A stretch of 64,000 nucleotides of DNA, taken from NCBI RefSeq assembly GCF_000814475.1, contig NZ_JSVC01000006.1, positions 62,001-126,000 of the forward strand, in the 5' to 3' direction. Below are positions 2,524-53,046 of this stretch, in pieces. This DNA is from Flavihumibacter solisilvae (GTDB lineage: Bacteria; Bacteroidota; Bacteroidia; Chitinophagales; Chitinophagaceae). Each line of letters begins with the position of its first letter. The first letter of the stretch is position 1. Made by a program: the position numbers and the translations under genes. Below the pieces are notes generated by a model, which did no database searches, was not told the origin of the DNA, and saw only the letters and a program-made list of their open reading frames with translations.

Positions 2524-4122
2524 TTACTGATCCCACCATACCCTGGAGGACCATTTGTCGCCCCCCTGCAGGTTGGCAACACCCATGGCATAACCGGCAG
2601 GATTACTCGTTGCTTCGCCGACAGGATAAGGCTGCCTTCTCGGGATATTTCCCCCGCCAAAATTACCGGGGTAATTCACTGGCGTGAGTTCGGGATAACC
2701 GGAACGTTTCCAGTTGATCCAGGCTTCGCCGAAATTCCACAGGATGCCCGTTGTAGCCCAATACTGGGTATTGATCTGTTCAAGAGCATTGCCGGCATCG
2801 AGCGGGTGGCTTGATGCGTATGCATCTGCCGTTGCATCGGAAACCGCTCCAGCCTTAAAGGCATTGAGCGCCAATATTCCTCCTCTTACACCATTGGCAT
2901 AATGTGTGGCGGCATCCGCACCTACATTCCAAGCCCTTGTAGCTGCTTCAGCGAGCAACAATTCGCTTTCCGCATAAGTGATCGCAAAAGCTGGCTGATC
3001 CCTGCTGGAATAAACTGCAATGCTCGGGCGTGAATATTTACCGATCGGCGTTGCATCGGCCCCCGTTCCTGTTCCACCGGGATAACCGGGAGAATTGGCG
3101 ATATTGAACGCAGATCCGGTATTCAGGTCATACCCGTTTGGTTGTCCAAGCTGTGCAGCGGGTGTACTGTTTCCAGCCAGGGCCTGGTTGTTATTGTTGG
3201 CAAGGCCAGGCTGGGGCACTTCGGCGACCACACTCAGGCGAGGATCATTTTCTGTCTTCAGGTAATCGATCAGGGTTTCACTCCAGCGCACCTGGTAAAA
3301 GTCTATGGTCACGAGCCATGCAGCAACATTCCCGTTACCATAGCCATTAGCGTTGTCTGACTTAATGTATACATCTTCCCCTGCGGCAAGTGTGCCACCG
3401 GCATATGCTTTTTCTGCCCATTGCTGTGCAGTTGCTGCATCCACTTTAACCAGCCGCATCGCGAGCCTGAGCATCAGGGAATATCCGAAGCGTTTCCATT
3501 TTGCCACATCGCCACCGAGTGAAGAAACGTCAGCTGTCGGACTTGCCTTTGACGGATCTATACTACTCAACGCAGCATCCAGGTCGTTGAGCATAGCGGT
3601 ATAAATATCCTGCTGTTTGTCGTACTTCGGCAGGGTGTTTCCGTCCCTCGCCTGCAATGATTCAGTGTACGGGGCATCTCCGTATACATCCGTGATATAC
3701 TGGTAGTTCAACACTTTCATGATGGTCGCAGCTGCATTTATATTCACGAAATCCGGGTCATTGGCTTTGTTGATCAGGATCTCATTTGCAAGTGCGGCTG
3801 ACCGGTAGGCATTGTTCCAGCTGCTTTGCACATACGAGTTCGTATTGCTCGATTCTACATACTTATCGGAATTGGTATAATAGTCGCCAGTTACTGTTGC
3901 CATCGAAAGGATCTGCGCCCAGCCACTCTGGAACAGGATAGGACCGGAATAACCGGTAATAGCCACTTCATAGTTCCGCTGGCTGTTAGACAGGAAATAA
4001 TTCGCATCGAAATTTTCCGGCACGTATTGCGTCGGGTCGGTATTGATCTCATCGAAATCCTTGGTGCATGACGTGGATAGTACCATAAGGCCTAACCCAG
4101 CATATAGAAAGTACTTTTTCAT
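2524..4122 (-). CDS. SusD/RagB-like nutrient-binding outer-membrane lipoprotein
   Basis: This 532-residue protein starts with a lipoprotein signal peptide; the lipobox LSTSC puts the lipidated cysteine at residue 19. The early segment KDFDEINTDPTQY and the late segment with EALINWKRSG-type sequence (EAWINWKRSGYPELTP) are typical of the SusD-like group annotated as SusD/RagB nutrient-binding lipoprotein. The fold is TPR-like, and the protein closes over the SusC barrel to capture ligand at the cell surface. The gene lies 24 bp after SusC and 12 bp before the VCBS protein, all on one strand. The ligand cannot be read from sequence. The pair is divergent from the phosphonate locus, so a shared substrate class is possible but unproven. 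Confidence 0.92.
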   Translation of the reverse strand: MKKYFLYAGLGLMVLSTSCTKDFDEINTDPTQYVPENFDANYFLSNSQRNYEVAITGYSGPILFQSGWAQILSMATVTGDYYTNSDKYVESSNTNSYVQSSWNNAYRSAALANEILINKANDPDFVNINAAATIMKVLNYQYITDVYGDAPYTESLQARDGNTLPKYDKQQDIYTAMLNDLDAALSSIDPSKASPTADVSSLGGDVAKWKRFGYSLMLRLAMRLVKVDAATAQQWAEKAYAGGTLAAGEDVYIKSDNANGYGNGNVAAWLVTIDFYQVRWSETLIDYLKTENDPRLSVVAEVPQPGLANNNNQALAGNSTPAAQLGQPNGYDLNTGSAFNIANSPGYPGGTGTGADATPIGKYSRPSIAVYSSRDQPAFAITYAESELLLAEAATRAWNVGADAATHYANGVRGGILALNAFKAGAVSDATADAYASSHPLDAGNALEQINTQYWATTGILWNFGEAWINWKRSGYPELTPVNYPGNFGGGNIPRRQPYPVGEATSNPAGYAMGVANLQGGDKWSSRVWWDQ

Positions 4123-4146
4123 ACATTTTATTTTTTGGTTCAGACC

Positions 4147-7100: not shown

Positions 7101-7236
7101 CTTTTACTTTAACTGTGGCGGCAATGATCGCTGCGCCGGTTGAATCTTCAACTACGACACCGGAGAGTTGCCGCGTCTGTGCTGTTGCAGAGATCCCTGC
7201 AAGTAGGAATAGCAGGAATAGTAGATTGCGTAACAT
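4147..7236 (-). CDS. SusC/RagA TonB-linked outer-membrane protein
   Basis: The 1029-residue product has a signal peptide (to about residue 19, ending ISATAQ), a carboxypeptidase-like beta-sandwich domain (about 22-100), a TonB-dependent plug (about 115-240, with VVTALGITKNQRKLGY and LKGQSASALYGARATNG) and a C-terminal barrel ending in FKFNK, with an aromatic residue near the end as usual. There is no N-terminal STN signalling domain, so it is unlikely to talk to an anti-sigma factor. It is the TonB-powered channel partner of the SusD gene 24 bp downstream. The promoter must lie in 7237-7651, shared with the divergent MFS gene. An ATG at 7236 directly before the signal peptide fixes the start. 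Confidence 0.95.
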   Translation of the reverse strand: MLRNLLFLLFLLAGISATAQTRQLSGVVVEDSTGAAIIAATVKVKGRPGGTATNDNGRFTLTVPTGSIVLQVTSAQYTMKEVQVGESENDISIRLMLNTQQLGEVVVTALGITKNQRKLGYAVTTVDGDELNKAREVNVGNSLSGRVAGLKVTGTNSGPGGTSKLLLRGMPSMNSGGSPLIVINGVPMDNTQRGASGEWGGSDNGDGLGNLNPDDIETMTVLKGQSASALYGARATNGVILITTKTGKRNAFGVEYNLNFMADEAIDFTDWQYEYGQGTQGVRPGTATEALNSNRFSWGERLDGAQVIQFDGKTYPYSAVKDNIKDFYRTGTTLTNTIAVLGGGENGSFRFSVSDLENKSILRNSGLDRVTANLNVEQKITKRLTANVVVNYIDEKSTARPQLSDGPMNPNNFTFLATNVNNRIFEPGYNPTTGFETVFSDDIYVSNPWFVVNQYVNNLARKRWITSGAVRYNFTDWLYAQARVGYDITNDRLKKVEPWGTAYTQDQHGNLQDQASTQLFELNWDGLIGVNHNLTDDISLDAAIGGNIRKNQYEKVAVAGSNFIVPYQYTLSNTRNPRTNPNDNYDFWKTEVQSAYYTIDFSYKKFLTLSTTGRYDAYSTLPTDNNTIFTPSVSAGFIFSDLLSLDKMNFGKLRMSFAQTSGELNEAYQTALYYSLGSPLGGVPVGSFSTDLPNLFLKPFVTTEYEVGLDLRFFNSRLNLDVALYTKETKNEIMPATYSPSTGANTGKVGTGSTRNNGVEVQVIGTPFKSKDFSWVSTFNFTYVNNKILHTDPAGNNQNLGQNRATLGNAITAFVEGYPGPQILAYDYAKTEKGEMIVDAAGLPQRGLLIPMGSVLPTTYGGWNNELTYKNFNFSFLIDYNYGNKILSATKYYGLRRGLDQATLEGRDGVIKGVLSDGTPNTKAASAQDYYTALANNVTSVTVLDGDYIKLRQVTLGYSLPSNLVSSLKIFSAIQVTLVARNLAVLLKHSDNIDPEANFASNIRYAGIEGTSLPSTRSYGINLNFKFNK

Positions 7237-7560: not shown

Positions 7561-7610
7561 ATGAAATCGGTTCCGGACTTTGCCAGTTTAGACAGTATAC
7601 CTAATTTACA

Positions 7611-7629
7611 TATACTAAACTTTGTTTAC
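7611..7629 (+). promoter_or_regulatory. Shared 19-bp element upstream of the MFS/phnW arm
   Basis: TATACTAAACTTTGTTTAC matches 18 of 19 bases with 19869-19887, which is in the control region of the minus-strand phosphonate operon. A degenerate mirror GTTTAG...TATAC occurs just upstream at 7586-7600. It sits 22 bp before the MFS start codon, where a repressor or activator could act. It is the best candidate for a binding site of the XRE-cupin regulator at 19964-20542. Confidence 0.5.
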
Positions 7630-7651: not shown

Positions 7652-8953
7652 ATGCTGGAAGGAATATTCAACCGATCGAAAGTCTTTTTTTCCGCCTGGT
7701 GCATGCTGGCAGCATTCGGCACCTACTTCTGTATGTACGTATACCGGAAGCCCTTCACAGCGGGTACTTATGCCGGGTTAAGCCTCTGGGGACTTCATTT
7801 CAAAAGCGTCCTGATAATCGCACAGGTGCTGGGATATATGCTGTCGAAGTTCATCGGCATTAAAGTGATCTCGGAACTGCAGCCGGGTCAACGGCAAAAA
7901 CTGATCATCGGCCTTATTTTATTTGCGGAACTGTCATTGGTATTCCTCGGACTGGTTCCTTATCCGTACAACTTTGTTTTTCTCTTCCTGAACGGATTGC
8001 CGCTTGGCATGGTCTGGGGAATTATTTTCAGCTACCTCGAAGGCAGGCGTTTTACCGAAATGCTGGCAATGGGACTCAGCATAAGCCTGATCGTAAGCTC
8101 CGGCATCCTGAAAACGACTTATTTCAATCTCCACGACTGGCTACCGGCTATCTCCGAATTCTGGATGCCCGCCTTCATAGGCCTGTGCTTTTTTCCCCTG
8201 TTCCTGCTTTTCGTCTGGATGCTCTCGGTTATTCCCGCGCCGACTGAAACGGATGTGTTGTTAAGGTCGGAGCGCTTGCCAATGACGCGGACTGAAAAAA
8301 GATCTGCCCTGAACGAATTTGGTTTTGGTCTTTCCTGCCTGGTGATCATTTACAGCCTGCTTGTTACGTTGCGCGATGTGCGTGATAACTTTTCCGTGGA
8401 AATCTGGCAGGAGACCGGCGAAAAATGGGACAATACCGTCTTTTCTAAAACAGAACTTATCACGGGAATTATAGTGCTGGTCGCCGTAGCCTGCCTGTCA
8501 CTTATCCGGAACAATATCAAGGGCTTCTGGGCAACGCAATGGCTCATTGCGCTGGGCGTCCTGATTACCGGCACCAGTACCCTGCTCTTTCAACTCCAGG
8601 TGTTTCCTGCCTACTGGTGGATCCTCTTGCTGGGAATGGGATTGTTCCTGGCATACATCCCCATCCAGGTAGCACTTTTTGAAAGAATGATCGCCATGTT
8701 CAAAATGAAATCCAACGCCGGATTCTTCATCTATATCTGCGATGCCGTCGGCTACCTCGGCAGCGTCGCACTCCTGTTGTATAAAGAAATCTGTATGCCT
8801 GATCTGGGGTGGACAAAAATGCTGATGCGTTACAGCTATGTGCTTACTGTGGCATGCCTTTTCTTCCTCATCCTCTCAGCCTTTTTCTTTAACAGGAAGG
8901 CCGGGGTGAAGGGACCCATTTCCGGCAAACTCGAAAACATTCAATCAACCTAA
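7652..8953 (+). CDS. MFS-type inner-membrane permease (DUF5690-like), candidate phosphonate transporter
   Basis: The 433-residue protein has about twelve hydrophobic helices across its length and no signal peptide. The first helix carries a CMYVYRKPF segment that recalls organophosphate-antiporter (GlpT/UhpT) members of the major facilitator superfamily. I recognise it as the Bacteroidota family catalogued as DUF5690, from memory. The stop lies 10 bp before phnW and both genes read in the same direction, so they form a two-gene operon. The context points to uptake of 2-aminoethylphosphonate or a related phosphonate across the inner membrane. That is useful because no phnCDE- or phnSTUV-type ABC importer is present. 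Substrate and direction of transport are inference. Confidence 0.75.
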   Translation: MLEGIFNRSKVFFSAWCMLAAFGTYFCMYVYRKPFTAGTYAGLSLWGLHFKSVLIIAQVLGYMLSKFIGIKVISELQPGQRQKLIIGLILFAELSLVFLGLVPYPYNFVFLFLNGLPLGMVWGIIFSYLEGRRFTEMLAMGLSISLIVSSGILKTTYFNLHDWLPAISEFWMPAFIGLCFFPLFLLFVWMLSVIPAPTETDVLLRSERLPMTRTEKRSALNEFGFGLSCLVIIYSLLVTLRDVRDNFSVEIWQETGEKWDNTVFSKTELITGIIVLVAVACLSLIRNNIKGFWATQWLIALGVLITGTSTLLFQLQVFPAYWWILLLGMGLFLAYIPIQVALFERMIAMFKMKSNAGFFIYICDAVGYLGSVALLLYKEICMPDLGWTKMLMRYSYVLTVACLFFLILSAFFFNRKAGVKGPISGKLENIQST

Positions 8954-8963
8954 ATACATACTT

Positions 8964-10082
8964 ATGGAGCGGAAAGAATTATTATTCACTCCCGGGCCAC
9001 TCACTACTTCGAAAACAGTTAAGGAAGCAATGCTGAAGGACATGGGCTCGCGTGACTATACTTTTATGAATGCAGTGAAAGAGATCCGCAATGAATTACT
9101 GCAGCTGGCACATGTATCTAAAGAGTCCGGGTATGAATGCGTGATCATGCAGGGATCTGGCACTTTCGGGGTTGAAAGTGTGATCAGCAGCATCATCGGG
9201 AATAACGATAGCTTACTCATCCTTGTTAATGGTGCGTATGGGGAACGGATTGTGAAGATGGCAGACATCCATAAGATCCGGACAGTTGTCGCACGCGTGC
9301 CTGAAAACGAGATAATAACGCCGGAAATGACTGAACAGCTTCTTCAGCAGCATCCTGGAATCACCCACGTCGCCTGCATTCACAGTGAAACAACTACCGG
9401 GCTCTTTAACCCGGTCGCTGAGATCGGAAGGGTGTGCAAATCCCAAGCGAAAGTATTTATTGTCGATGCCATGAGCAGCTTCGGCGGCGTGGAAATGGAT
9501 ATGCAGGCGATGCAAATAGATTTCCTGGTATCCTCTTCAAACAAGTGCATTGAAGGTATTCCCGGGTTCGCATTTGCCTTATGCAGGAGAATGGAACTTG
9601 AGAAGGCAAAGGGACAGGCAAGAAGCCTGAGCCTGGATCTCTACGATCAGTGGGCTGCACTGGAAGCGAGTGGCCAGTTCCGTTTTACGCCACCAACACT
9701 CAGCATTATGGCATTCCGCCAGGCATTAAGGGAACTCGCAACCGAAGGTGGAATTAGAGCGAGGGAAGAAAGATACCGGACGAACAAATTGCTCCTCGAC
9801 TCTGGCATGGCAAGGCTGGGGTTCAGGCAATACCTCGAACCTGGAATCCAGGGCCATATCATCACTTCATTCCTGTATCCAGACACACCCCATTTCAGTT
9901 TCGACCGCTTCTACAAAAAACTCAATGAACGTGGATTCGTGATCTACCCGGGCAAGCTGGGAAAAACCGATGCCTTTCGTATTGGCAATATCGGCCAGAT
10001 CTTCCCGCAGGACGTGAAAGCACTGATCGAAGCTGTTGCCGAAGTTATGCAGGAAGAACAAGCTCCGGTGGCTGAAGCCTGA
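8964..10082 (+). CDS. phnW: 2-aminoethylphosphonate:pyruvate transaminase
   Basis: This class V (fold type I) PLP aminotransferase has 372 residues, close to the usual PhnW length. It transfers the amino group of 2-aminoethylphosphonate to pyruvate, giving phosphonoacetaldehyde and alanine in the cytosol. The start LFTPGPLTTS is typical of the family. The Schiff-base lysine is K194 in SSSNKCIEG and the ring-nitrogen aspartate is D168 in FIVDAMSSFGG. GSGTFGVES binds the cofactor phosphate. It is co-transcribed with the MFS permease. It converges on the minus-strand phosphonate operon with only 3 bp between stop codons. Serine-pyruvate or alanine-glyoxylate transaminases are distant relatives, but the neighbours phnY and phnA make PhnW the firm call. 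Confidence 0.95.
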   Translation: MERKELLFTPGPLTTSKTVKEAMLKDMGSRDYTFMNAVKEIRNELLQLAHVSKESGYECVIMQGSGTFGVESVISSIIGNNDSLLILVNGAYGERIVKMADIHKIRTVVARVPENEIITPEMTEQLLQQHPGITHVACIHSETTTGLFNPVAEIGRVCKSQAKVFIVDAMSSFGGVEMDMQAMQIDFLVSSSNKCIEGIPGFAFALCRRMELEKAKGQARSLSLDLYDQWAALEASGQFRFTPPTLSIMAFRQALRELATEGGIRAREERYRTNKLLLDSGMARLGFRQYLEPGIQGHIITSFLYPDTPHFSFDRFYKKLNERGFVIYPGKLGKTDAFRIGNIGQIFPQDVKALIEAVAEVMQEEQAPVAEA

Positions 10083-10085
10083 TCA

Positions 10086-11246
10086 TCATGCGCAGGTAAA
10101 GATCTTTTCGATGTTTGCCTGCGCATATCCTGCTGCACAGGTCATTCCCTTTCCACCAATCGCCACCCGGATAAAGATCCTGTCCTCAATATCGTGTTCC
10201 AGGACTTCCTTTTTATTGTGCACCGCGTAAAACCCCGCCCAGGATTCCTTTACCTGGCCAAGGTCAATGTCGGCTATGCGTGTTGCTTCCCTGCGGATCA
10301 GTTCATTGATCTGCTGGTTGATGCAGTATCCCAGGTTTTCTTCCTCTCCGATACGCGCGTATTCATGTGAATCACCTACTATCACCGTTCCATCTGTCGC
10401 TTTCTTGAACAGGATATGGATGCCCCACTTCGCCAGTTCCCGGAGGTGGTCCGGCGTAGTGATTGAACTGTATGACGGGCACTCCGCAAATGATTCATAC
10501 CTGCGGATGCTTAGCCCGGTTGCTATATTCCCTTCCATTAGCAGGTCGGGAAATGGCAACGATCTCAACATCTGCAACTTTACCAGCGACAGGTCCTCCT
10601 GCGCAAACAACGATGGAAATAAGATCCTGAATTCGTGCCCGCTCGCAATTACCGCTTTTTCTGCCCGGAACTTTTCCCCGCCTGCTACAGTTACTGATAC
10701 GCCATCGCCTTCCACAACGCAATCAATTGCTGGCGTGGCAGGCCGGTAAGTAACATGGGCATACTTCAACACGGTATACTGGTGTAAGCGATGAATGAAC
10801 TGATCAGGTTCCAGGCTTATTTCCTGCGGAAAGAACAATCCCTCCCGGCAATAGGACGACCGGATCGCAGGAACCTTTTCCTGTACCTGTTGGCGACTCA
10901 GCAGCTGGGCTACATAACCGATCTGATCGTAGTGCTCTTTTAATTCATGCAGTAACTGCTGCTCGTCATCGTCGGAAGCGATGTACAGGCTTCCGTTGTT
11001 CCGCACAGAAATATCATATTCCTGTTGAATCTCCTTGTACAGCGCAGTGGAATACCGGCCATATTCGAACCAACGGCCTGCCATGCCCGACACGATCGCC
11101 ATCCCGAAGTTGCGGACGCTCGCATTCACAGGACGATGGTCTTTTTCCAGCAGCAAAACCTTCTTCCCTATGGCAGCAGCATGCCAGGCATGTAAAGTGC
11201 CCAGCACACCAGCTCCCACTACAATAAGGTCAAATTGACGATTCAT
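10086..11246 (-). CDS. FAD-dependent amine oxidoreductase of the phosphonate-associated family
   Basis: The 386-residue DAO-superfamily protein begins with a Rossmann dinucleotide-binding site (LIVVGAGVLG, residues 8-17) followed by the acidic strand end LLLLEKDH. A C-terminal GGKGMTCAAG segment completes FAD binding. It matches the group known as TIGR03364, FAD oxidoreductases found beside phosphonate catabolism genes. The likely reaction is oxidative deamination of AEP or an N-alkylated AEP to phosphonoacetaldehyde, giving a second entry beside PhnW. The start codon overlaps the upstream stop in a TAATG junction (1 base), so translation is coupled. It is the last gene of the minus arm. Family assignment is from memory; substrate is inferred. 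Confidence 0.82.
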   Translation of the reverse strand: MNRQFDLIVVGAGVLGTLHAWHAAAIGKKVLLLEKDHRPVNASVRNFGMAIVSGMAGRWFEYGRYSTALYKEIQQEYDISVRNNGSLYIASDDDEQQLLHELKEHYDQIGYVAQLLSRQQVQEKVPAIRSSYCREGLFFPQEISLEPDQFIHRLHQYTVLKYAHVTYRPATPAIDCVVEGDGVSVTVAGGEKFRAEKAVIASGHEFRILFPSLFAQEDLSLVKLQMLRSLPFPDLLMEGNIATGLSIRRYESFAECPSYSSITTPDHLRELAKWGIHILFKKATDGTVIVGDSHEYARIGEEENLGYCINQQINELIRREATRIADIDLGQVKESWAGFYAVHNKKEVLEHDIEDRIFIRVAIGGKGMTCAAGYAQANIEKIFTCA

Positions 11247-12328
11247 TATGGCAATACTGTTTTTACCGGTTCGCCCACAGGATGTTTTGCACTAAAGGCA
11301 AAACCAAGCAGGCGGGAAATAGTCTGGGCAAACTGCTCCTGGTAGATCTGGCCGGCTGTTGTTACTTCACCCAGTGGTTTTGTATCCGGGCCAATCACCA
11401 TCAGGTATGTTTCATCGGAATGCGGTGCACTGGTACCATGATCGGTCCAGAGGTTTCCTTCTCCCCTTCCATGGTCGGTGCAAATGATCAACGTGGTCTG
11501 GTTCCGGTAAAATTTATCCCGCTGCAGGGCAGTCCACAAGTCATGGATCATTTTGTCTGTTTTATGTGCTGCGTCCAGGTACTGGTTGTACTTCCCCGAA
11601 TGCGCATAGCCGTCAAGGTCTCCAAGATCCATATAAAATAAGCGCGGGTACTTTGAGAATATGTAAGCCTTTGACATGGCATAAGTACTTACATCAAGCC
11701 TTTCCCCCTCACCAAAAACATCCGGCACCATATGCTGGAAAGCATTCGCTTCCTGCTGGCTTTCAGTTAAACCGGGACCTTTCATATCCTCGCCCCAGAT
11801 GTTCACCGTTATTCCATTCCGGTTGCGGTTCATGATCCAGGCAACAACATCCCAGGAAGCAAATGCTGCAGTCTTCCCTTCAAACCCCTTCTGCCTGTTG
11901 ATGAACTCCATCACGTTCTCATTGGGATTGTCGATCTTATCGTTCGAATTCATTGCCGGGTCGAAATAACCGGTCCAGGTCTCACTGCGACCGGGATACG
12001 AGAACCAGTAAGTGTTTTTTACATTCACTTTATTACCCAACTCACGGTTACCGTATAGCTGTCCCTTTGTCGCAATTGTGCTCCACACAAATGGCATCAG
12101 CTTCTGCCTGCGCTGCTTCGCGGTTTCAGCCCAGTATTTCTTCACGGTCCACGCCGAATCTTTTGTATATTTTTTATTGAACAGGATGGTCGAATCCGCT
12201 CCCTGGAAAAGTTCGCGCCAGCGGTAACCGTCCAGTGAAATCAAAATAACATTTTTCGTTTTTCCCTGTGCAAACAGGTCGCCGGCAAGGAAAATCAGGA
12301 TACATAGATAAATCAACCTTGTTTTCAT
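11246..12328 (-). CDS. Exported alkaline-phosphatase-superfamily hydrolase
   Basis: The frame is open back to 12397, but the ATG at 12328 begins a clear signal peptide (MKTRLIYLCILIFLAG, cleavage near LFAQ) and avoids overlap with phnY, so the product is about 360 residues and periplasmic. Metal-site motifs of the alkaline phosphatase/phosphodiesterase superfamily are visible: VILISLDGYRW (D33), YPGRSETWTG (possible Ser/Thr nucleophile near 115), LGDLDGYAH, and ICTDHGRGEG followed by TDHGTSAPHS. Proteins of this type are annotated as phosphatase, phosphodiesterase or phosphoglyceromutase-like. Inside this operon it may release AEP or phosphate from phosphonate esters before uptake; that is inference. 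It lies 29 bp after phnY and overlaps the FAD enzyme start by one base. Confidence 0.82.
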   Translation of the reverse strand: MKTRLIYLCILIFLAGDLFAQGKTKNVILISLDGYRWRELFQGADSTILFNKKYTKDSAWTVKKYWAETAKQRRQKLMPFVWSTIATKGQLYGNRELGNKVNVKNTYWFSYPGRSETWTGYFDPAMNSNDKIDNPNENVMEFINRQKGFEGKTAAFASWDVVAWIMNRNRNGITVNIWGEDMKGPGLTESQQEANAFQHMVPDVFGEGERLDVSTYAMSKAYIFSKYPRLFYMDLGDLDGYAHSGKYNQYLDAAHKTDKMIHDLWTALQRDKFYRNQTTLIICTDHGRGEGNLWTDHGTSAPHSDETYLMVIGPDTKPLGEVTTAGQIYQEQFAQTISRLLGFAFSAKHPVGEPVKTVLP

Positions 12329-12357
12329 TAATTGTTGTTTTCGGTTATTGCTTAATG

Positions 12358-13809
12358 TTACCATGGCAGGGAAAATGTTTTCACATACGTAAAACACTTC
12401 ATCGCTTCAATTACCCCTTCCTTAATGCCCAACCCTGAATCCTTGATGCCACCGAATGGTGAGCTTTCAATGCGGTACCCCGGCACTTCGTTGATGTTCA
12501 CGGTGCCAACTTTTAAATCTTTGATAAAGCGAAGCGCGTAATCCATATTGTTCGTGACAATACCGGCAGAGAGTCCGTATGCCGTGGAATTACTCAATAT
12601 TATTGCATCATCTATGTCCCGGAACTTCATCACCGGGGCAAGTGGACCGAATGATTCCTGCACCACCATTTGTGAATGACGGGGCACATTTACAATTACA
12701 GTGGGCTGAAGCAGTGCGCCCATGCGTTGCCCGCCAAGCAATATCTCTGCACCCTGCTCCACTGCTTTCTGCACAACAGATTCAAGGTAAATGGCAGCCG
12801 GTTCATCTATCACGGTTCCAACCTTTGTATCCGGGTCGGCCGGGTCACCGCAGGGATATTTCTTTGCGGTCTCCACCAGCTTTTCAACAAAGGCATCGTG
12901 TATGCGTTCGTGCACGAGTATACGCTTTACCGCGGTGCATCGCTGGCCGCTGTTCCGGAATGACCCTTCTGCAGCAAGGAATGCTGCCTTATCGAGGTCC
13001 GCATCTTCCATAATGATCAATGGATCATTGCCTCCCAGTTCCAGGATCACTTTTTTATACCCGGCAATAGCAGCGATCTGTTTGCCTACTGCCACACTGC
13101 CCGTGAAGGAAACGATATCCACCCGCACATCCTTTACCAATGGTTCCGCGATCTCTTTCGTAGCACCCAGCAACACGCTTAACATATAAGGCGGCAGGCC
13201 CGCCTCATATAATAATTCTGCGAGTTTTATGGCAGTCAGTGGTGTCTTTTCAGACGGCTTCAGGATAACCGGTGTACCCACTGCGATGGCAGGCGCTATC
13301 TTGTGCACCACCTGGTTGAGCGGATGATTGAATGGCGTGATACATACTGCCAGTGAAAGCGGTTCGCGCGTGGTAAAGATCTTACGCGCCTTTCCTGACG
13401 GCGAAATATCACAGGAAAACACTTGCCCATCGTCTTTCAGGCTTTCAATCGCAGCGAACATCAGTACGTCGTGCGCACGTCCTGTTTCGTAGTATGCTTC
13501 GCGGATTGCCAGCCCGCTTTCGGCACTGATCACCCGGGCGAATTCTTCTTTTCGTTCCACCAGCAATTGCCGCGCTTTTTCGAGGATGCTGTAACGTTCG
13601 TAACGCGTTAATTTAACCCCGCCTTTCAACGCAATGTCAATTGCCTCACTGGCATGAACCGCTTCGCACAGCTGAACGGTTCCCACGAGCCGGTTGTCGT
13701 AAGGCGAGCGAACTTTCAGCAGCTTATCTGAGCTCACAGGATTTCCGCCAACGTAACAGTTGAGGTTCATTACACTGGTCCCTATTTCTGTTATTGCAAC
13801 TTTTTCCAT
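12358..13809 (-). CDS. phnY: Phosphonoacetaldehyde dehydrogenase
   Basis: The 483-residue aldehyde dehydrogenase has the catalytic cysteine at C291 (NSGQRCTAVKR) and the general base E257 (VILELGG). NAD-binding elements are ITPFNHPL, LKPSEKTP and SFTGSVAVG. R290 next to the nucleophile fits the phosphonate-binding arginine known in PhnY enzymes. It oxidises phosphonoacetaldehyde to phosphonoacetate with NAD+. It lies 9 bp after phnA and 29 bp before the exported phosphatase-like gene, on one transcript. Taken alone it could be another ALDH, but pairing with phnA and phnW makes the call strong. Confidence 0.93.
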   Translation of the reverse strand: MEKVAITEIGTSVMNLNCYVGGNPVSSDKLLKVRSPYDNRLVGTVQLCEAVHASEAIDIALKGGVKLTRYERYSILEKARQLLVERKEEFARVISAESGLAIREAYYETGRAHDVLMFAAIESLKDDGQVFSCDISPSGKARKIFTTREPLSLAVCITPFNHPLNQVVHKIAPAIAVGTPVILKPSEKTPLTAIKLAELLYEAGLPPYMLSVLLGATKEIAEPLVKDVRVDIVSFTGSVAVGKQIAAIAGYKKVILELGGNDPLIIMEDADLDKAAFLAAEGSFRNSGQRCTAVKRILVHERIHDAFVEKLVETAKKYPCGDPADPDTKVGTVIDEPAAIYLESVVQKAVEQGAEILLGGQRMGALLQPTVIVNVPRHSQMVVQESFGPLAPVMKFRDIDDAIILSNSTAYGLSAGIVTNNMDYALRFIKDLKVGTVNINEVPGYRIESSPFGGIKDSGLGIKEGVIEAMKCFTYVKTFSLPW

Positions 13810-13818
13810 GGTAACTTT

Positions 13819-15066
13819 TTAAGGATTCGTTCCATTCACCGTGAAATCGAAAATGTCAAAATTCCTCGGGTCGCCTGCGGCTTTCATTTTATACTGCGCG
13901 TTCAGTGGATGCGAGATCAACATCGGCACCATTTCTTCGTAACGACCACCATGCGAACGCAGGGATCCATCGAGTGCAGAAAGATCATGATACTCCGGTC
14001 TTCGCCCTACCACCACATCACGACCCGACAACACAACCAGGTCGCCTATACGGTCCGCCGGTTGTTCAAGCACCCGCACGGCCGTTGCCTTGTCATACAC
14101 TTCGGTTATGCCCGGCTGAACGGCCAGCCAGTTCTTAATTTCATCTGTCCGCGAAGGATCGCTGAGATGCACTACCACGTATGAGCCAAGCGCACCATGG
14201 TGTTTCACATAGGGATCGGTAATGGGACAGATCACGCGGAATCCATTGGTGCCGAAATGCGATTCGAGTATGTCTTCCACGAACAATACATTCGGACTGC
14301 CATCCGCTTTCACTTTGGCATTCATGCCATGGTCTGCAGTTGCGCCTACCACGGCCCCCAGTTCAAGCAGCCTCCCAATCTCCCGGTCCATCGCTTCATA
14401 GAAGGCAAGCGACTCTTCCTTTTCGGGTGAATACGTGTGCTGCATATAGTCGGTGAGCGACAGGTATAGCAAATCAGCCAGCCCCTGCTCAACAAATGCC
14501 ACTCCTGCCCGCAACACGAAGAGGCTGGCATCAGCGCTGTAGATCGCGGGCGTGGGAAAACCAACAATTGCTTCCACATTTTCAATCCCATGTGTATCCT
14601 GTCGTGCCTGGTTTGCTTTTTCCGCAGAGATCGCAATCCCCTTCATGTTGTGTGACAGGATATCCCTGAGTTTCTCCTTTGCTGTTACTACCGCCACTTT
14701 CCTGCCGGCATTGGCCGCTGCAGCAAGCAGGGTCTCAGCCCGCAGGTAGGATGCCGAATTCATCATCACTTCCTCCCTGTTCAACGTATCGTAAAAGAAA
14801 TTCCCGCTGATGCCATGTACCGCCGGCGAAACACCGGTCACGATCGAAGCATTGTTCACATTGGTAAAACTCGGGAGTGCCCCGCGCACCATTCCCCTAA
14901 AGCCATTCCTGACCATCTGCTTCAGGTTTGGCATCCTGTCGAACAACATGGTTGTATCGAGGTATTCGTCGGCCGAACCGTCCATGCAGATTACCACTAT
15001 GGGACTGGCAGCCGGCGAATACGTCTTCCCGTTCGCCTCAAATTTCACTGTTGAAATAGTACTCAT
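13819..15066 (-). CDS. phnA: Phosphonoacetate hydrolase
   Basis: The 415-residue alkaline-phosphatase-superfamily metalloenzyme splits the C-P bond of phosphonoacetate to acetate and phosphate. With the ATG at 15066 (a TTG lies one codon before it) the residues fall where the family has them: D29 (VVICMDGS), nucleophile T68 (LPSFTNVNN), D206 and H210 (LTDYMQHT), D245 and H246 (ATADHGMN) and H372 (RSHGGRYEE), forming a two-zinc site. It has no signal peptide and so is cytosolic, unlike its superfamily relative three frames downstream. It sits 20 bp after SusD and 9 bp before phnY. This is the phosphate-releasing step of the locus. Confidence 0.94.
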   Translation of the reverse strand: MSTISTVKFEANGKTYSPAASPIVVICMDGSADEYLDTTMLFDRMPNLKQMVRNGFRGMVRGALPSFTNVNNASIVTGVSPAVHGISGNFFYDTLNREEVMMNSASYLRAETLLAAAANAGRKVAVVTAKEKLRDILSHNMKGIAISAEKANQARQDTHGIENVEAIVGFPTPAIYSADASLFVLRAGVAFVEQGLADLLYLSLTDYMQHTYSPEKEESLAFYEAMDREIGRLLELGAVVGATADHGMNAKVKADGSPNVLFVEDILESHFGTNGFRVICPITDPYVKHHGALGSYVVVHLSDPSRTDEIKNWLAVQPGITEVYDKATAVRVLEQPADRIGDLVVLSGRDVVVGRRPEYHDLSALDGSLRSHGGRYEEMVPMLISHPLNAQYKMKAAGDPRNFDIFDFTVNGTNP

Positions 15067-15089
15067 CAATTAGTGTATTGTATTCAAAT

Positions 15090-16598
15090 TTATCTGATCA
15101 TCCACATTTCATCATTCCGCGTATCCGATCCTGCAAACTGGCGCTGTACCGCATCTTTCACGTTTGCATTATTGTTGGTATACTCAGATTGCGGGTAAGA
15201 AAAACGTACAGGGATTGTAGCACCGTTCTCATTGGCAGGCCCGATATCAAATCCCGGTACTCCTGTACGGCGCCAGTTGAAATAGGACTGCCAACCGGAG
15301 TTCTGGAAAAAGGCCACATATTTCTGGGTCAGCAACTGGTTAAGCCCGTCTGCATTATCGCCTTTATATACAATCCCCGGCTGGGCAAGGAAATCAGTGA
15401 TTGCCTGTTGTGCTACGCCATAGAATTTCATGTTCTGGTTAATTCCGTTCGTATAATGCGTTGAAGCATCGCCGGCAGTCCAACCACGGTTGATACCTTC
15501 CGCTAAATTGAACGCAGTCTCGCTGGCACCCAATTGAATGGCAGGTACACCATTGGCATCCTTCAGCCAGAAATCGCGGTTTATGGTTGCATATAGGCCG
15601 AGGTTGGTCTGGGTCTGGATCTCGCTCTGGATCGCGCCGGTATTCGCACCTCTGAATCGCGCGAACGCATTTGCCGGGTCCTCGGCAATGCCGGGGGCAG
15701 GACTGGCAATTTTAAAGATCCGCGGATCCTGGTTGAGCGTCATCAGGTCTACCCAGGTTGCTCCCAGCACATTCCTGTTCACATAAAATTTGGAATCGTC
15801 GGGCCAGATGGGATTGTTGTTAGTTTTATCCGTCGTGTTGTACACCATCTGCATGTTGTCGCTGTTGTCGGTGATCAGCGGGTATTTATCCGGGTTACTG
15901 GCAATCGAATTAAACCGTGCTTTCAGGCCCAGGTCCGCATCGCCTTCTTTTTTACTCAGGCTTATGAGGATGCGTAATGACAAGGAGTTAACTGCCTTAC
16001 GCCATTTCCGTACATCACCATTGTAGAAGATGTCGCCCTGCACTGTGGTAGCCGGATTTTCATTGATGACACTTTCCAATTCTGTATTGGCATCTTCCAG
16101 CCACTGCAGGCATTGCAGGAATACCGATTTCTGATCATCATATTTCGGGAAATAAACCCCCTCCGGTGCCTTCATCGCTTCAGTCAGCGGCAGATCTCCC
16201 ATCTGCTCAGTCATGCGGCTATACAACCAGGCGCGGGCAAAATTCCCGATCGCCTTGTAACTCCGCGTTACTGTATTCGTACCGAGTTTATCAGCCTCAA
16301 TATCGAGCCGCTCCACATTGCGAAGCGTGCCGTAATACATGGAACCCGCGCCCCAGGTATAGGCCTGGTTGCCATAGTAATCGAAGTTCAATACCATGTA
16401 CTGCGCCATGCGGTGCGCATAAGCGTAATCGGACCAGGGGTTGTCGTACATATCGTATTCGATACCGGTAAGCAACAGTTTCGGCGATGCCTGGTCTGAC
16501 GCGTTGGGATTTCGTTGCAGGTCCTCGATTTTCCTGCAGCCTGTAATCATGAACATGATCAGCACTGCTGCCATTATCCAATTAGTATAGCGGTTCAT
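15090..16598 (-). CDS. SusD/RagB-like nutrient-binding outer-membrane lipoprotein of the phosphonate operon
   Basis: This 502-residue protein has a lipoprotein signal ending ITGC (C21), then the SusD start RKIEDLQRNPNASDQASP, and a late YFNWRRTGVPGF segment typical of the family. It belongs to the same SusD-like subgroup as the protein at 2524-4122 but is clearly diverged. It is 18 bp after SusC and 20 bp before phnA, so outer-membrane capture and C-P bond catabolism are in one operon. It presumably binds a phosphonate-bearing ligand at the surface, such as a phosphonoglycan, phosphonolipid head group or exopolymer; this is inferred from context only. Confidence 0.93.
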   Translation of the reverse strand: MNRYTNWIMAAVLIMFMITGCRKIEDLQRNPNASDQASPKLLLTGIEYDMYDNPWSDYAYAHRMAQYMVLNFDYYGNQAYTWGAGSMYYGTLRNVERLDIEADKLGTNTVTRSYKAIGNFARAWLYSRMTEQMGDLPLTEAMKAPEGVYFPKYDDQKSVFLQCLQWLEDANTELESVINENPATTVQGDIFYNGDVRKWRKAVNSLSLRILISLSKKEGDADLGLKARFNSIASNPDKYPLITDNSDNMQMVYNTTDKTNNNPIWPDDSKFYVNRNVLGATWVDLMTLNQDPRIFKIASPAPGIAEDPANAFARFRGANTGAIQSEIQTQTNLGLYATINRDFWLKDANGVPAIQLGASETAFNLAEGINRGWTAGDASTHYTNGINQNMKFYGVAQQAITDFLAQPGIVYKGDNADGLNQLLTQKYVAFFQNSGWQSYFNWRRTGVPGFDIGPANENGATIPVRFSYPQSEYTNNNANVKDAVQRQFAGSDTRNDEMWMIR

Positions 16599-16616
16599 TT
16601 TGTGCAGTTTTCTTTG

Positions 16617-19600
16617 TTAGAATGTAAGGTTGAGGTTCACGCCGAAGCTTTTGATCGACGGTGTTTCCAGGTCGGTACCACCACCAGTCCATTGGTCAAG
16701 ATCCATATTTCGTGCGCGCGGATCACTCGCCTGGTACCAGAGATTCCGGCCAACAAGCGATACTGATGCTGCGTTCAGGAATTTCTGTTTCCCCAATAGC
16801 TTGCTAGGCATGTTGTAAGAAATGATCAGCTCGCGTAACTTGATATAACTCTTGTCTACAACGTTGGCAATATCACTTCCCCAGTAGCCTTTTGCAAATG
16901 ACTCCCACTTGATGTGTGCGGTGTTTTCCTGGAACTTGCGATTGTCGGATACAACGTTCCCGTCACCATCCACTACCAGTGAACCACTGGTTACGTTTAC
17001 ACCATTGCCGACATAAGTACCGTTATAACCTGGTGTGCTGCGGTTATCCCAGTCAGCCCGGCGGTATTCATTCGCTGAAAGCGGGTGCGCTCCGGCCTGC
17101 CACTGTTTCTGGCTGAGGTAGTTCACCAGCTTTCCACCATAACGGCCATCGAAGAGAAAGCCCAGACTGAAGTTCTTATACCGGAATGTGTTCTGAAGAC
17201 TGGCTATCCATTTCTCGTTGGTATAACCCTGGAAAGTAGAATAACTGTTTAGCAATGGCCGGCCATTTCCTGCATTATACACGACCTGGCCATCCGGTGA
17301 TTTCTGGAAATCACGCAGAAAGAGTTTGTCTACCCGCTCCCCAATCTTCACCCGGTTGTAAGATGATAAGGTATCATACACATCTTCGAGGTAACGGTTC
17401 TGGGTTGACCAGTTGGCGACAATGTCCCAGCCAAAATTCTTTTTGCGTACAGGCGATGCTGTCAGTACCAGTTCCACCCCGGTCCGCTTATAGGTCAGTC
17501 CATTCCGCTGCAGGGAAGTTGCACCACTGCTCGACGATAGTGGCAGGTAAAAGATTCCCGGTCCTTCAATATTGCGGAAATAAGCCAGGTCAATTCCCAA
17601 CCTGTTGTTCAGGAAACGGAGGTCGGCACCGAACTCAAGCGTTTTGGTGAACTCCGGCGAAATATTCGGGTCGTACAGGGTACCGCTGTAATAGAGCGAC
17701 GGGTTACCACTCCACCTGGTTCCGGTTGCATAAGTTGGAGCAAGTGAGTAATAGGAACTATAGCCCGGAGAAGGTGGCAATCCATCACCACCTACCTTGG
17801 CATATGATGCCCTCAGTTTGGCAAAGGAAATGAATGACGGCAACTTCACCATTTCCGACAGCAGGGCACTCAGTGAAACTGATGGATAGAAGAAATCGTT
17901 GTTTTGTTCCGGTAATGTAGAGGCCTGGTCAACCCGGCCGGTCAGGCTCAGGAAGATCATTTTCTTGTAGTCGAAATCGGTGTATGCATACAAGCTTTGA
18001 CGCTGGTAGGCCGATTTGAAGGTTTCGGTCGAAGGCGGATCAATACTGTTCTGCACGTTCCATAACTGCGGTACAAGCAGGCCGTTGTTGGTGTGACTGT
18101 ACAGGTAATTGGTTTTCCTCGTCAACAGGTTTGCGCCTGCAGAACCTTTGAAAGAAAAGTCGCGGCTAAAGTTTTTGGTATAAGTTGCCAATACGTCCGT
18201 ATTGTTCTCCCAGAAATGATCGAAATATTCGTTGTAACCACCTTTCTGGAAATAATTCCCATCACCGTTATACTGTGAAGTTGAAATAGGGTAACGATTC
18301 TGCCGGTTAAGATAGTTTGTACTCACGTTGGTGCGGAGGTGGATGTCGAGTTCATCCGTGATATTGTATTTCAGTTTCGCATAACCGTAGATGTCATCCT
18401 TGTAGTAACTCCGCAGTTGTTCATAGGCGATGAAGTATGGATTTGAATACTGGTAGTATTCCACGTTCTTCTGCTGGGTGCCTTCTTTACCGGGCTGCCA
18501 GTAATCTTTCAGCTCACGCACGTCGTAGTTGGCAGCACCCCAGATCATCATAGCATAAACAGGACTACTCGGCTGGTAGGCCAGCACGGGGTAATTCGGC
18601 GTGTATTGTTTATTGTAGTTGATATTGGCTTCGAGGCGAAGTTTCCTCGTGATGTTCAGTCCACCTGAAAAATTCATATTGGTGGAATTCAACTTGGTAT
18701 TGGGTACCTGTCCCCGCTGGTATAACTGGGTCATGGAAAAGCGGATATCTCCCCTGTCGTTATTTGCAGCAATGGCAATATTGTTGGACGACAATAATCC
18801 ATTCTGCAGGAAGTTGTGCAGGTTATTCTTTCCACTGGCGATCCAGGGAAGGGGAACCAGTTCGCCGGTAGCGGGATCAACCTTGCTGTTCCACTGGTTA
18901 ATAAGCTGACCTTCGAACCTTGGGCCCCACACATCATAATCGGCATCATTGGTACCACTGCCTTTCCCGTCAACGAACTCATACTGGAAGTTGGAACCAG
19001 GACCATATTCAGCCTGCAATCCAGGTTCCGCATTGAAGCCCGTCTGCAATTGTGTGCTTGAATTGAACTCCATGCTGTAGCCGCGCTTATTCTTCGATCC
19101 GCGTTTGGTAGTGATCTGGATGGCGCCATTGATCCCGTCCGATCCGTATAAGGCGGCAGCGGTTGGACCTTTCAATACCGAAAAACTCTCAATGTCGTCT
19201 GCGCTGAGGTTCCAGGAATCGGAGCTGATGCGCACCCCGTCAACCACAATAATGGTTCCCCTGCCCCGAAGGGAAATCCCGGGGTCCCCGAATAGATTCG
19301 AGGAAGCCGCAATACGGAGACCTGCAACCTTACCGGTCAGCGAGTTAATGACATTGGGCTCCCGGGCTTTCACCAGTTCCTCTCCTTTCACTTCCTGCAC
19401 CGAGTAGCCGATCCGTTTCTTTTCTTTTTTGATTCCAAGCGCTGTAACCACTACTTCATCAAATGCATCCCTGCCGGGCTGAAGCTGGATGCCGACCATG
19501 GACTGGTCCGTAATAGTGGTTTCCTGTATCGTAAATCCGACATAACTGAAGACAAGGGTTGAGCCGGGCTTTGCATTTATGGTAAAGCGGCCGTTGAGAT

Positions 19601-19775
19601 CGGTGCTGGTGCCGTTCTTCGTTCCCTTTACCATCACCGTTACACCAGAAAGAGGTTTGTTGCTGGCATCCGTAACGGTGCCATTTACCGTTGACTGTGC
19701 AAGCGCAGCCAGGGACAGTACCAGCGACAATGCCGCAAGCAGGGCGGATCGTGAAAGTTGGTGAATTCGTTTCAT
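16617..19775 (-). CDS. SusC/RagA TonB-linked outer-membrane protein of the phosphonate operon
   Basis: The 1052-residue protein has a signal peptide (ending LSLAALAQS), a carboxypeptidase-like domain (about 30-105), a TonB-dependent plug (about 115-230, with VVTALGIKKEKKRIGYS and LKGPTAAALYGSDGING) and a barrel ending SFGVNLNLTF with terminal Phe. There is no STN domain. It is the first structural gene after the XRE-cupin regulator, separated by a 188-bp control region rich in repeats. With the SusD 18 bp downstream it should import something too large or scarce for porins, which is unusual for a phosphonate operon because AEP itself is small. Confidence 0.95.
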   Translation of the reverse strand: MKRIHQLSRSALLAALSLVLSLAALAQSTVNGTVTDASNKPLSGVTVMVKGTKNGTSTDLNGRFTINAKPGSTLVFSYVGFTIQETTITDQSMVGIQLQPGRDAFDEVVVTALGIKKEKKRIGYSVQEVKGEELVKAREPNVINSLTGKVAGLRIAASSNLFGDPGISLRGRGTIIVVDGVRISSDSWNLSADDIESFSVLKGPTAAALYGSDGINGAIQITTKRGSKNKRGYSMEFNSSTQLQTGFNAEPGLQAEYGPGSNFQYEFVDGKGSGTNDADYDVWGPRFEGQLINQWNSKVDPATGELVPLPWIASGKNNLHNFLQNGLLSSNNIAIAANNDRGDIRFSMTQLYQRGQVPNTKLNSTNMNFSGGLNITRKLRLEANINYNKQYTPNYPVLAYQPSSPVYAMMIWGAANYDVRELKDYWQPGKEGTQQKNVEYYQYSNPYFIAYEQLRSYYKDDIYGYAKLKYNITDELDIHLRTNVSTNYLNRQNRYPISTSQYNGDGNYFQKGGYNEYFDHFWENNTDVLATYTKNFSRDFSFKGSAGANLLTRKTNYLYSHTNNGLLVPQLWNVQNSIDPPSTETFKSAYQRQSLYAYTDFDYKKMIFLSLTGRVDQASTLPEQNNDFFYPSVSLSALLSEMVKLPSFISFAKLRASYAKVGGDGLPPSPGYSSYYSLAPTYATGTRWSGNPSLYYSGTLYDPNISPEFTKTLEFGADLRFLNNRLGIDLAYFRNIEGPGIFYLPLSSSSGATSLQRNGLTYKRTGVELVLTASPVRKKNFGWDIVANWSTQNRYLEDVYDTLSSYNRVKIGERVDKLFLRDFQKSPDGQVVYNAGNGRPLLNSYSTFQGYTNEKWIASLQNTFRYKNFSLGFLFDGRYGGKLVNYLSQKQWQAGAHPLSANEYRRADWDNRSTPGYNGTYVGNGVNVTSGSLVVDGDGNVVSDNRKFQENTAHIKWESFAKGYWGSDIANVVDKSYIKLRELIISYNMPSKLLGKQKFLNAASVSLVGRNLWYQASDPRARNMDLDQWTGGGTDLETPSIKSFGVNLNLTF

Positions 19776-19806
19776 GAGCAGTAGAGTTTTTTAGCGTGGT
19801 TGACGA

Positions 19807-19922
19807 ATAGTAATACTATCGGTTTGTTTAGTATAAATATACATGTGAACAGTTCACAAATGTTCACTTATACTAAACTTTTTTTACGCAATCGGTTGCG
19901 GATTACGGTGCAATCGGTTGCA
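19807..19922. promoter_or_regulatory. Dense operator cassette upstream of the phosphonate SusC operon
   Basis: Within the 188 bp between regulator and SusC I see, in order: an odd-centred palindrome ATAGTAATACTAT (19807-19819); an 11-bp inverted repeat GTTTAGTATAA (19826-19836) and TTATACTAAAC (19868-19878); between its arms a 15-bp palindrome TGTGAACAGTTCACA (19844-19858) with a third half-site GTTCAC at 19862-19867; the 19-bp element at 19869-19887 shared with 7611-7629; and two LacI-like boxes CGCAATCGGTTGCG (19887-19900) and TGCAATCGGTTGCA (19909-19922), 22 bp apart. This suggests at least two regulators. Which protein binds which box is not shown by sequence. Confidence 0.6.
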
Positions 19923-19963
19923 AAAAATAGTAATGCTAAACACTAATGCATCATGAAAGGATC

Positions 19964-20542
19964 TTACCGGGCGATAAAGAAGTACACCACCAACATCATG
20001 GCATCGGTATTGCCGGCATTGGCGAGTTTATGGGGAAGCCGGCTGTCGAAGAAGAGTGATTCCCCTTCATTGAAGAGGATCTTTTCATCCTCAATGGTAT
20101 ATTCCACTTTCCCCCTGATCATGTAGTTGTATTCGAATGATTCAGAGGTGATCATTTTATTCCTTTTGGCCCCCTTTTTCAATTCAAGGATGACGAAGTC
20201 AACCGGGCCACCCTGCACATTGCGGGTGAAGGCCCGGTGATACTGGAAACCTTTCGCTTCCTTTTCGAAAGTCTGGTAGTCCTTTGGCGTCTTGATGATG
20301 ATCTTCTGCTCGGATTTCCTGTTGGGGGTTATGTCCTTAAAGAACTCATTGAGGTCGAGGTTCAGCGAAAGAACAATGTTCATCAATACAGGCAGGGAGG
20401 GGACGGTACGATTGTTCTCGATCTGCGAGATCAGGCCCTTGCTCACATTTGCCCTGTCTGCGAGTTCCTGTACCGTAATGTTCTTCTGCTTCCGTATTTC
20501 CTTGATCTTATAGCTGATCTGGATGAGCATATCCTCCTGCAT
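19964..20542 (-). CDS. XRE-family transcriptional regulator with C-terminal cupin domain
   Basis: The 192-residue protein has an N-terminal lambda-repressor-type helix-turn-helix (about residues 10-65, VQELADRANVSKGLISQIEN) and a C-terminal cupin_2 sensor barrel (about 105-190, with YNYMIRGKVEYTIED and SRLPHKLANAGN). Such proteins usually control a neighbouring catabolic or uptake operon in response to a small ligand bound in the cupin. It reads toward the phosphonate operon, with the operator cassette directly after it. The ATG at 20542 is used; a second ATG at 20530 follows an AGGAGG that is too close to serve it. Role as regulator of both phosphonate arms is inferred from position and the shared element. 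Confidence 0.88.
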   Translation of the reverse strand: MQEDMLIQISYKIKEIRKQKNITVQELADRANVSKGLISQIENNRTVPSLPVLMNIVLSLNLDLNEFFKDITPNRKSEQKIIIKTPKDYQTFEKEAKGFQYHRAFTRNVQGGPVDFVILELKKGAKRNKMITSESFEYNYMIRGKVEYTIEDEKILFNEGESLFFDSRLPHKLANAGNTDAMMLVVYFFIAR

Positions 20543-49523: not shown

Positions 49524-49540
49524 GTGTCAACAGTTGACAC
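49524..49540. repeat. 17-bp palindrome overlapping a stop codon
   Basis: GTGTCAACAGTTGACAC has 8-bp perfect arms about a single central base. It covers the last codons and stop of the minus-strand gene ending at 49527. It could be a weak terminator stem or chance in the C-terminal Cys-Val-Asn-Cys codons. Confidence 0.35.
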
Positions 49541-53030: not shown

Positions 53031-53046
53031 AACCAGATTTTTAAGT

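Follow-up and report, generated by a model that had tools for sequence, protein, structure and literature searches.

In a 64,000-nucleotide stretch of the Flavihumibacter solisilvae contig NZ_JSVC01000006.1 (positions 62,001 to 126,000; hereafter the window), positions 7652–20542 hold nine genes that we interpret as a phosphonate utilization locus built on the plan of a polysaccharide utilization locus (PUL). A SusC/SusD (SusCD) pair would import phosphonates of the 2-aminoethylphosphonate (AEP) type, an exported hydrolase of the alkaline phosphatase (AP) superfamily, here called AP2, would free them, the membrane protein DUF5690 would carry them further in, PhnW or an FAD oxidase together with PhnY and PhnA would degrade them, and an XRE-cupin protein would control the set. 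We regard this reading as rather probable. It draws on gene identities, operon layout, recurrence in relatives, a SusC clade, the co-distribution of DUF5690, predicted folds and a leader motif, and from these we infer the transport roles, the cargo, the substrate of AP2 and the part played by the regulator.

Gene Content and Operon Organization

The original prediction, made from the letters of the window, had named phnW, phnY, phnA, the SusCD pair, the exported AP-superfamily enzyme, a permease of the major facilitator superfamily (MFS) and the XRE-cupin regulator, and profile matches recovered every one of these genes in place (Table 1). PhnW, PhnY and PhnA all exceed their NCBIfam equivalog cut-offs, which makes the catabolic assignment independent of motifs, and their co-occurrence corresponds to the PhnWYA pathway of AEP degradation. 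An overlooked FAD-dependent oxidase exceeds the cut-off of TIGR03364, the PbfD family, and is linked to AEP genes, as it adjoins phnW and phnYA. Enzymes of the PbfD type convert N-methyl-AEP and, less well, AEP to phosphonoacetaldehyde (PMC10590968, cited, like the other reports below, from excerpts of its text).

The genes susC, susD, phnA, phnY, AP2 and the oxidase gene lie on one strand with gaps of 18, 20, 9, 29, and −1 nt, and therefore probably form a single operon. DUF5690 and phnW converge on this six-gene set, with 3 nt between. The shared operon set of the original prediction thus holds for SusCD with phnA, phnY, and AP2 (plus the oxidase), but not for DUF5690-phnW, which is a separate, convergent unit. 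Pfam and NCBIfam scans of the nine locus proteins revealed neither glycoside hydrolases nor polysaccharide lyases, and a profile search of the window genome did not find the C-P lyase marker PhnJ. A single marginal hit to the binding protein family PF12974 lies on a different contig (5.8e-4; 27.1 bits including neighbours, cut-off 27) and appears unspecific because 12 of 14 control genomes also give hits in this search. The possibility of a phosphonate biosynthesis cluster was weighed and rejected, as no phosphoenolpyruvate mutase occurs among the 19 proteins scanned around the locus (no genome-wide search was made).

Table 1. Genes and putative operators of the phosphonate locus in the window.
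Feature	Position	Strand	Evidence
DUF5690 (MFS-like), candidate inner-membrane phosphonate permease, similar to organophosphate:phosphate antiporters	7652..8953	+	PF18943 524 bits
phnW, AEP:pyruvate transaminase	8964..10082	+	TIGR02326 480 bits (cut-off 401); NF010006 497 (cut-off 296)
FAD-dependent oxidase, TIGR03364/PbfD family	10086..11246	-	TIGR03364 331.6 bits (cut-off 285.1)
AP2, predicted exported AP-superfamily hydrolase (start revised)	11246..12328	-	PF01663 and PF00884, each narrowly above cut-off
phnY, phosphonoacetaldehyde dehydrogenase	12358..13809	-	TIGR03250 677 bits (cut-off 636)
phnA, phosphonoacetate hydrolase	13819..15069	-	TIGR02335 506 bits (cut-off 408)
SusD-like surface lipoprotein	15090..16598	-	PF12771 254.6 bits; MITGC lipobox by eye
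SusC-like TonB-dependent transporter, first gene of the probable six-gene operon	16617..19775	-	TIGR04056 above cut-off
XRE-cupin regulator	19964..20542	-	PF01381 and PF07883
Putative operator upstream of DUF5690-phnW (TTTACATATACTAAACTT)	7605..7622	+	13.4 bits, rank 1 in 64 kb
Putative operator, susC leader	19863..19880	+	11.3 bits, window rank 3
Second putative operator, susC leader	19824..19841	-	10.2 bits, window rank 7

Relatives Carrying phnA

Two genome sets were searched, one of 396 genomes from the order (the window genome included) and one of 395 from the phylum; the window genome, G119 and G088 belong to both. PhnA scored above cut-off in 14/396 and 8/395 genomes, respectively, and the neighborhoods of the order's 13 further phnA loci were compared together with five new ones from the phylum. 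Seven of the 13 have a SusCD pair (L035, L039, L040, L041, L042, L045, and L044), that of L044 at 30 and 23% identity. In L035, L040, and L045 the pair stands with DUF5690-phnW and phnYA, with neither AP2 nor a recognized oxidase, and L039, L041, and L042 have a different oxidase, which lies below all NCBIfam cut-offs shown. Where open reading frames overlapped, the longer one was retained; this concealed a PhnX-like gene in L119 and L123, so that absences of short genes from any of the neighborhoods are to be read softly.

Outside the order, L051, L053, and L055 combine phnWYA with an AP-superfamily protein of 818–836 aa, PbfA, a PbfD-like oxidase, and an MFS protein, assigned by hidden Markov models (HMMs) in L051 and by similarity in the other two. 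In L051 the AP-superfamily protein matches PF01663, with two Phosphodiest stretches and a PA14 domain; PbfA and TIGR03364 score above cut-off, and the best models for the MFS protein, PgtP/GlpT, remain below it. A separate observation concerns L034 and L036, where XRE-phnA follows a gene for a large “PVC-type heme-binding” protein of the HEAT-repeat/cytochrome-c type (L034:5294-8671 by HMM, its L036 relative by similarity).

A Wider Locus Type with AP2, DUF5690 and a PhnX-Like Hydrolase

Relatives of AP2 were found in 119 and DUF5690 in 141 of the 396 order genomes. From these lists 20 regions were picked by hand, 18 of which hold both genes and two (L089 and L090) AP2 only. A SusCD pair is present at 16 of the 18 loci (not at L077 and L083), and a PhnX-like hydrolase takes the place of PhnWYA likewise at 16. 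The commonest gene order is susC, susD, AP2, Phn-HD, PhnX-like, DUF5690, PbfD; an XRE-cupin gene stands in front in 7/18, and 13 of 40 other loci in the comparison have XRE-cupin relatives. In L086, for example, the oxidase scores 413 bits for TIGR03364, above cut-off, with the HD protein (TIGR03276, 212 bits, cut-off 215) and the PhnX-like HAD protein (TIGR03351, 189, cut-off 219) both just below. The genomes G333 and G375 carry SusCD-AP2-HD-DUF5690-PbfD (L087 and L088) without PhnX-like and have phnY-phnA elsewhere (L043 and L038), so that the window locus looks like the version in which PhnWYA stands in for the PhnX-like enzyme.

Co-distribution points the same way, with p values that count genomes and are uncorrected for relatedness. 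DUF5690 and PhnX-like occur together in 111 of the 396 genomes (41.3 expected, p 8e-63), and all 14 PhnA genomes have DUF5690 (5 expected, p 3e-7). Within the 141 DUF5690 genomes, PhnX-like and PhnA are near-exclusive, sharing only two (11 expected, p 7e-8), as if the two were interchangeable; across all 396 genomes this exclusion is not significant (2 shared, 4.1 expected, p 0.37). Five of the 116 PhnX-like genomes are without DUF5690. In at least 78 genomes DUF5690 lies within 10 kb of PhnX-like, and in at least 35 DUF5690, AP2, and PhnX-like stand together.

A second hand-picked set comprised 20 loci with DUF5690 near PhnX-like and no listed AP2 nearby. Six of them have SusCD (L107, L108, L116, L122, L124, and L126), which gives 16/18 with AP2 against 6/20 without in sets picked by AP2 presence (Fisher p 3e-4). 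Other phosphoesterases are present at all six, versus 5/14 SusCD-less loci (L113, L114, L115, L117, and L121): PF04185 proteins in L107, L108, L124, and L126, and PF01663-PA14 proteins in L116 and L122, assigned by similarity in L108 and L126 and by Pfam in the rest. Judged by eye, those of L107, L108, L116, and L124 have signal or lipoprotein starts and that of L122 is ambiguous. L113 has, in addition, a TonB receptor that is not a SusC. Several of the SusCD-less loci are minimal DUF5690 + PhnX-like pairs, and in the first set susD and AP2 are separated by a GDPD-type gene in L082 (Pfam) and L084 (clustering).

Lineage of the SusC Transporter

A tree was built from 39 SusC sequences, 7 from phnWYA loci, 16 from PhnX/PbfD loci, and 16 others, of which 7 had been chosen because they ranked first or second among matches to the window SusC. 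The clade that contains the window SusC has 23 members (support 100/99), 20 of them at phosphonate loci (13 PhnX/PbfD and 7 phnWYA); one of the three others (L097) lies at a contig edge. Inside the clade the phnWYA label does not form one group (5 changes). In up to 56 candidates scored per genome, the best match of the window SusC lies at a phosphonate locus in 7 of the 13 other phnA genomes (G341, G301, G359, G195, G088, G333, and G375); in G315 the phosphonate-locus SusC is second best, and in five genomes the best match lies elsewhere or is unresolved. The nearby SusCs L096 and L099, outside the clade, adjoin PF01663 phosphodiesterases, which suggests that the phosphonate SusCs originated in organophosphate systems.

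The window also contains a second SusCD pair (2524–7236), divergent to DUF5690, whose SusC belongs outside the phosphonate clade.

The Predicted Hydrolase AP2 and Permease DUF5690

The AP2 reading frame opens at 12397, and an internal ATG at 12328 gives MKTRLIYLCILIFLAGDLFAQ, by eye a signal peptide, so that 12328 is the more plausible start. Across 22 aligned sequences, window included, D33, S110, D239, H243, D285, H286, and H297 are invariant, which we take to be the metal site and nucleophile expected of the superfamily. The AlphaFold2 model (mean predicted local distance difference test score, pLDDT, 91.8) has the AP-superfamily fold and matches LtaS, LtaP, YejM, sulfatases, PafA, NPP, and phosphonate monoester hydrolase at 10–15% identity, with no clear class. 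AP2 is thus, as modeled, an exported AP-superfamily enzyme. An assignment as phosphonate monoester hydrolase did not find support: by profile 4upk gave E 0.59, and by fold 4uph stood at rank 30, with LtaS, YejM, and sulfatases higher.

The DUF5690 model (pLDDT 89.7, from an alignment of 31 sequences) gave, in a Foldseek comparison with the PDB, G6PT/SLC37A4 at all of ranks 1–8 (17–20% identity) and GlpT at rank 33 (17%); MFS proteins other than organophosphate:phosphate antiporters (OPA) reached 11–15% among the 50 matches displayed. The first helix ends in a basic pair, R32 and K33, that is invariant in 31/31 sequences, and an RKPF-like pattern, RK[PAST][FY], occurs in 30/31, aligned with RKNF of the L051 MFS protein. 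In GlpT and G6PT such a basic pair binds phosphate. Fold and basic pair thus agree with the OPA group; in sequence, DUF5690 has no NCBIfam match and no PDB profile match up to E 1, and hhalign comparisons with the OPA-type MFS proteins of L051 and L053 were not significant. DUF5690 is probably an inner-membrane permease, because it tracks PhnX-like and PhnA and its model folds like these antiporters, and it may work like them. Another DUF5690 gene occurs elsewhere in the window genome (G000:C3:43671-44816; L105), and since no phosphonate gene was recognized within the 20 kb retrieved there, a different substrate is possible for some copies.

A Shared Leader Motif

Motif learning used 62 core leaders, all from genomes other than that of the window, and the runs converged near GTTTACAAATATTAAAC. 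Ranks 1, 3, and 7 of its sites in the window fall at the two main leaders of the locus (Table 1); the second SusCD pair's leader scores 3.6 bits. Six-fold cross-validation by locus recovered 18/65 core versus 6/234 other leaders at 12 bits, fold 1 giving a differing consensus; at 10 bits the counts were 15/22 for susC, 3/5 for phnA, 1/11 for XRE, and 0/12 for AP2. The XRE-cupin protein may be what binds this motif. An earlier candidate, the 10-mer TATACTAAAC found by eye (at most one mismatch), occurs in 10/26 core leaders of phnA loci (shuffle expectation 1.45) and at near-expectation in other core leaders (2/46, expectation 1.2), and the learned motif was therefore used instead. Scans for sigma-70 promoters and terminators remained at shuffle level.

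Proposed Mechanism and Alternative Explanations

According to the proposed mechanism, the TonB-powered SusC with its SusD lid would bring AEP-type phosphonates across the outer membrane, most likely as ester-linked conjugates, for instance lipid head groups or pieces of decorated glycan. Exported AP2 would free (N-methyl-)AEP in the periplasm, and the OPA-like permease DUF5690 would carry it inward. In the cytoplasm, PhnW (from AEP) and the PbfD-type oxidase (from N-methyl-AEP) would both yield phosphonoacetaldehyde, which PhnY would oxidize to phosphonoacetate and PhnA would then split into acetate and phosphate; these reactions follow the published biochemistry of the PhnW, PhnY, PhnA, and PbfD families (PbfD: PMC10590968). 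The XRE-cupin protein would sense the substrate or an intermediate and control the two transcription units by way of a GTTTA-n7-TAAAC-like site common to both.

Several observations weigh against this mechanism. Absence of SusCD from orthologous loci, which the original prediction had named as grounds for giving it up, was seen in part: besides the seven loci of the order that have the pair, it was not found at the remaining 6/13 (L033, L034, L036, L037, L038, and L043), at any of the five outside the order (L051–L055; 0/5), or at the planctomycete phnA loci L001 and L002 (0/2). Two of these are weak negatives, since L038 breaks off within a few hundred bases beyond phnA and L052 is a 10-kb contig. 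Even in the same genus, G119 (L036) and G343 (L034) show XRE-phnA-phnY-DUF5690-phnW with no SusCD beside phnA. No more than 6/20 AP2-less loci have SusCD, and no phosphoesterase was recognized where SusCD meets phnWYA in L035, L040, and L045. Three PhnX/PbfD SusCs (L078, L085, and L095) and that of L044 fall outside the clade, which implies either repeated origins of the association or an exchange of pairs. Among the DUF5690 genomes, 18/141 have neither PhnX-like nor PhnA; AP2 is near DUF5690 in at least 43 of the 119 AP2 genomes and probably has further uses. The window XRE leader reaches only 9.5 bits for the motif, and only 4/12 DUF5690 leaders pass 10 bits, three of them common to the susC intergenic region.

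The leading rival, that SusCD imports free AEP or N-methyl-AEP and that the phosphoesterases, AP2 included, scavenge phosphorus in general, seems to us rather unlikely. It would account for L035, L040, and L045, and SusCD systems for small cargo exist, but AP2 sits inside the window operon, its closest relatives (~64%) are found at phnWYA-SusCD loci, SusCD accompanies AP2 in the sets selected on AP2, and at the six SusCD loci without AP2 other phosphoesterases are present. These recurring exported phosphoesterases favor ester-linked phosphonates as cargo. An esterified substrate would be their best single account, counter-examples notwithstanding, and the phosphonate-decorated glycan, lipid head group, or polymer that the original prediction envisaged is, to that extent, plausible.

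Alternatively, SusCD and AP2 could be an organophosphate (phosphodiester) module of the PUS type that merely shares the operon, with AEP entering by porins. Flavobacterium PusCD clusters with periplasmic phosphodiesterases (PMC8115612), the PF01663 neighbors of L096 and L099, two of the nearest SusCs outside the clade, and the lack of a clear class for the AP2 fold all fit this explanation; that in many genera the SusC stays with phosphonate genes of either catabolic type, PhnWYA or PhnX-PbfD, and that the leader motif is shared make it improbable. An ordinary glycan SusCD inserted by chance next to phn genes is very improbable: the window genome has 99 Plug-domain matches, so SusC neighbors are common, but none of the nine genes encodes a glycoside hydrolase, the pair shares the operon, related SusCs recur at such loci, and the other window pair (2524–7236) differs in both clade and leader. 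Operon structure, recurrence, and lineage thus support the link of SusCD to the phosphonate genes that the original prediction had drawn, with SusCD as a recurrent, related component.

A broader proposal, which we offer tentatively, is that the proposed phosphonate locus exemplifies a phosphorus counterpart of the PUL, recurrent in one Bacteroidota order. SusCD would take up intact phosphono-conjugates (N-methyl-AEP or AEP esters on lipid or glycan pieces), several unrelated families of exported phosphoesterases would strip them in the periplasm, DUF5690 would be a new family of aminophosphonate permeases, and exchangeable modules (PhnX-like + PbfD or PhnWYA + PbfD) would cleave the C-P bond, in many cases controlled by a single XRE-cupin regulator.

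Relation to Known Systems

The original prediction knew of no described system of this form, yet the gene clusters of Flavobacterium PusCD complexes have been reported to include phosphonate-degrading enzymes (PMC8115612). As in these, a SusCD-type pair is clustered with a phosphoesterase, and the window locus, with such a pair, a predicted exported phosphoesterase, phosphorus-catabolic genes, and no carbohydrate-active enzymes, would be assigned to the PUS type. The PUS clusters differ from one another, are controlled by phosphate depletion, and have phosphonate enzymes that are left unnamed in the excerpts of that source. Unlike them, the locus described here belongs to a recurrent layout with DUF5690, a PbfD-type oxidase, PhnWYA or PhnX-like, and XRE-cupin.

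The premise that ABC importers or C-P lyase serve the known AEP loci likewise has to be given up, since AepP, a characterized MFS permease for AEP, is linked to PhnWAY (PMC8316502). The same three catabolic enzymes adjoin an MFS permease in both cases; the window locus adds outer-membrane SusCD and exported AP2, has XRE-cupin instead of the LysR-type AepR, and its permease is of the DUF5690 family, unmatched by GlpT-type models. Among the PbfB/C/D oxidases of AEP clusters, PbfD1 is annotated by TIGR03364 (PMC10590968), the family of the window oxidase, whose activity is predicted. A PUL has the same SusC, SusD, exported hydrolase, permease, and regulator; the window locus differs in having no carbohydrate-active enzyme and phosphonate instead of sugar catabolism.

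In the literature searched, which mostly did not cover subscription journals and bioRxiv and is thus weak evidence, no fuller description of a SusCD-phosphonate locus was found in titles and abstract openings, DUF5690 was unmentioned, and SusD together with aminoethylphosphonate turned up only in a reference list. For free phosphonates, a review in the excerpts available only presumes porins (PMC10574752), and the passage of bound phosphonates (phosphonolipids and phosphonoglycans) across the outer membrane of Gram-negative cells has been little tested. A defined SusCD locus makes outer-membrane phosphonate uptake approachable gene by gene and provides functional hypotheses for DUF5690 and the exported AP2 family; the many relatives with versions of the gene set point to what may be a recurrent way of feeding on the phosphorus of natural phosphonates.

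Other Features of the Window

Downstream of the second SusCD pair, positions 1–2511 encode an FG-GAP/ASPIC-UnbV protein. Two long neighboring proteins (1167 and 1623 aa) at 49530–57918 have no Pfam match at 1e-8, and at 32291–36591 a response regulator with a sigma-54 interaction domain adjoins a HisKA_2 histidine kinase.

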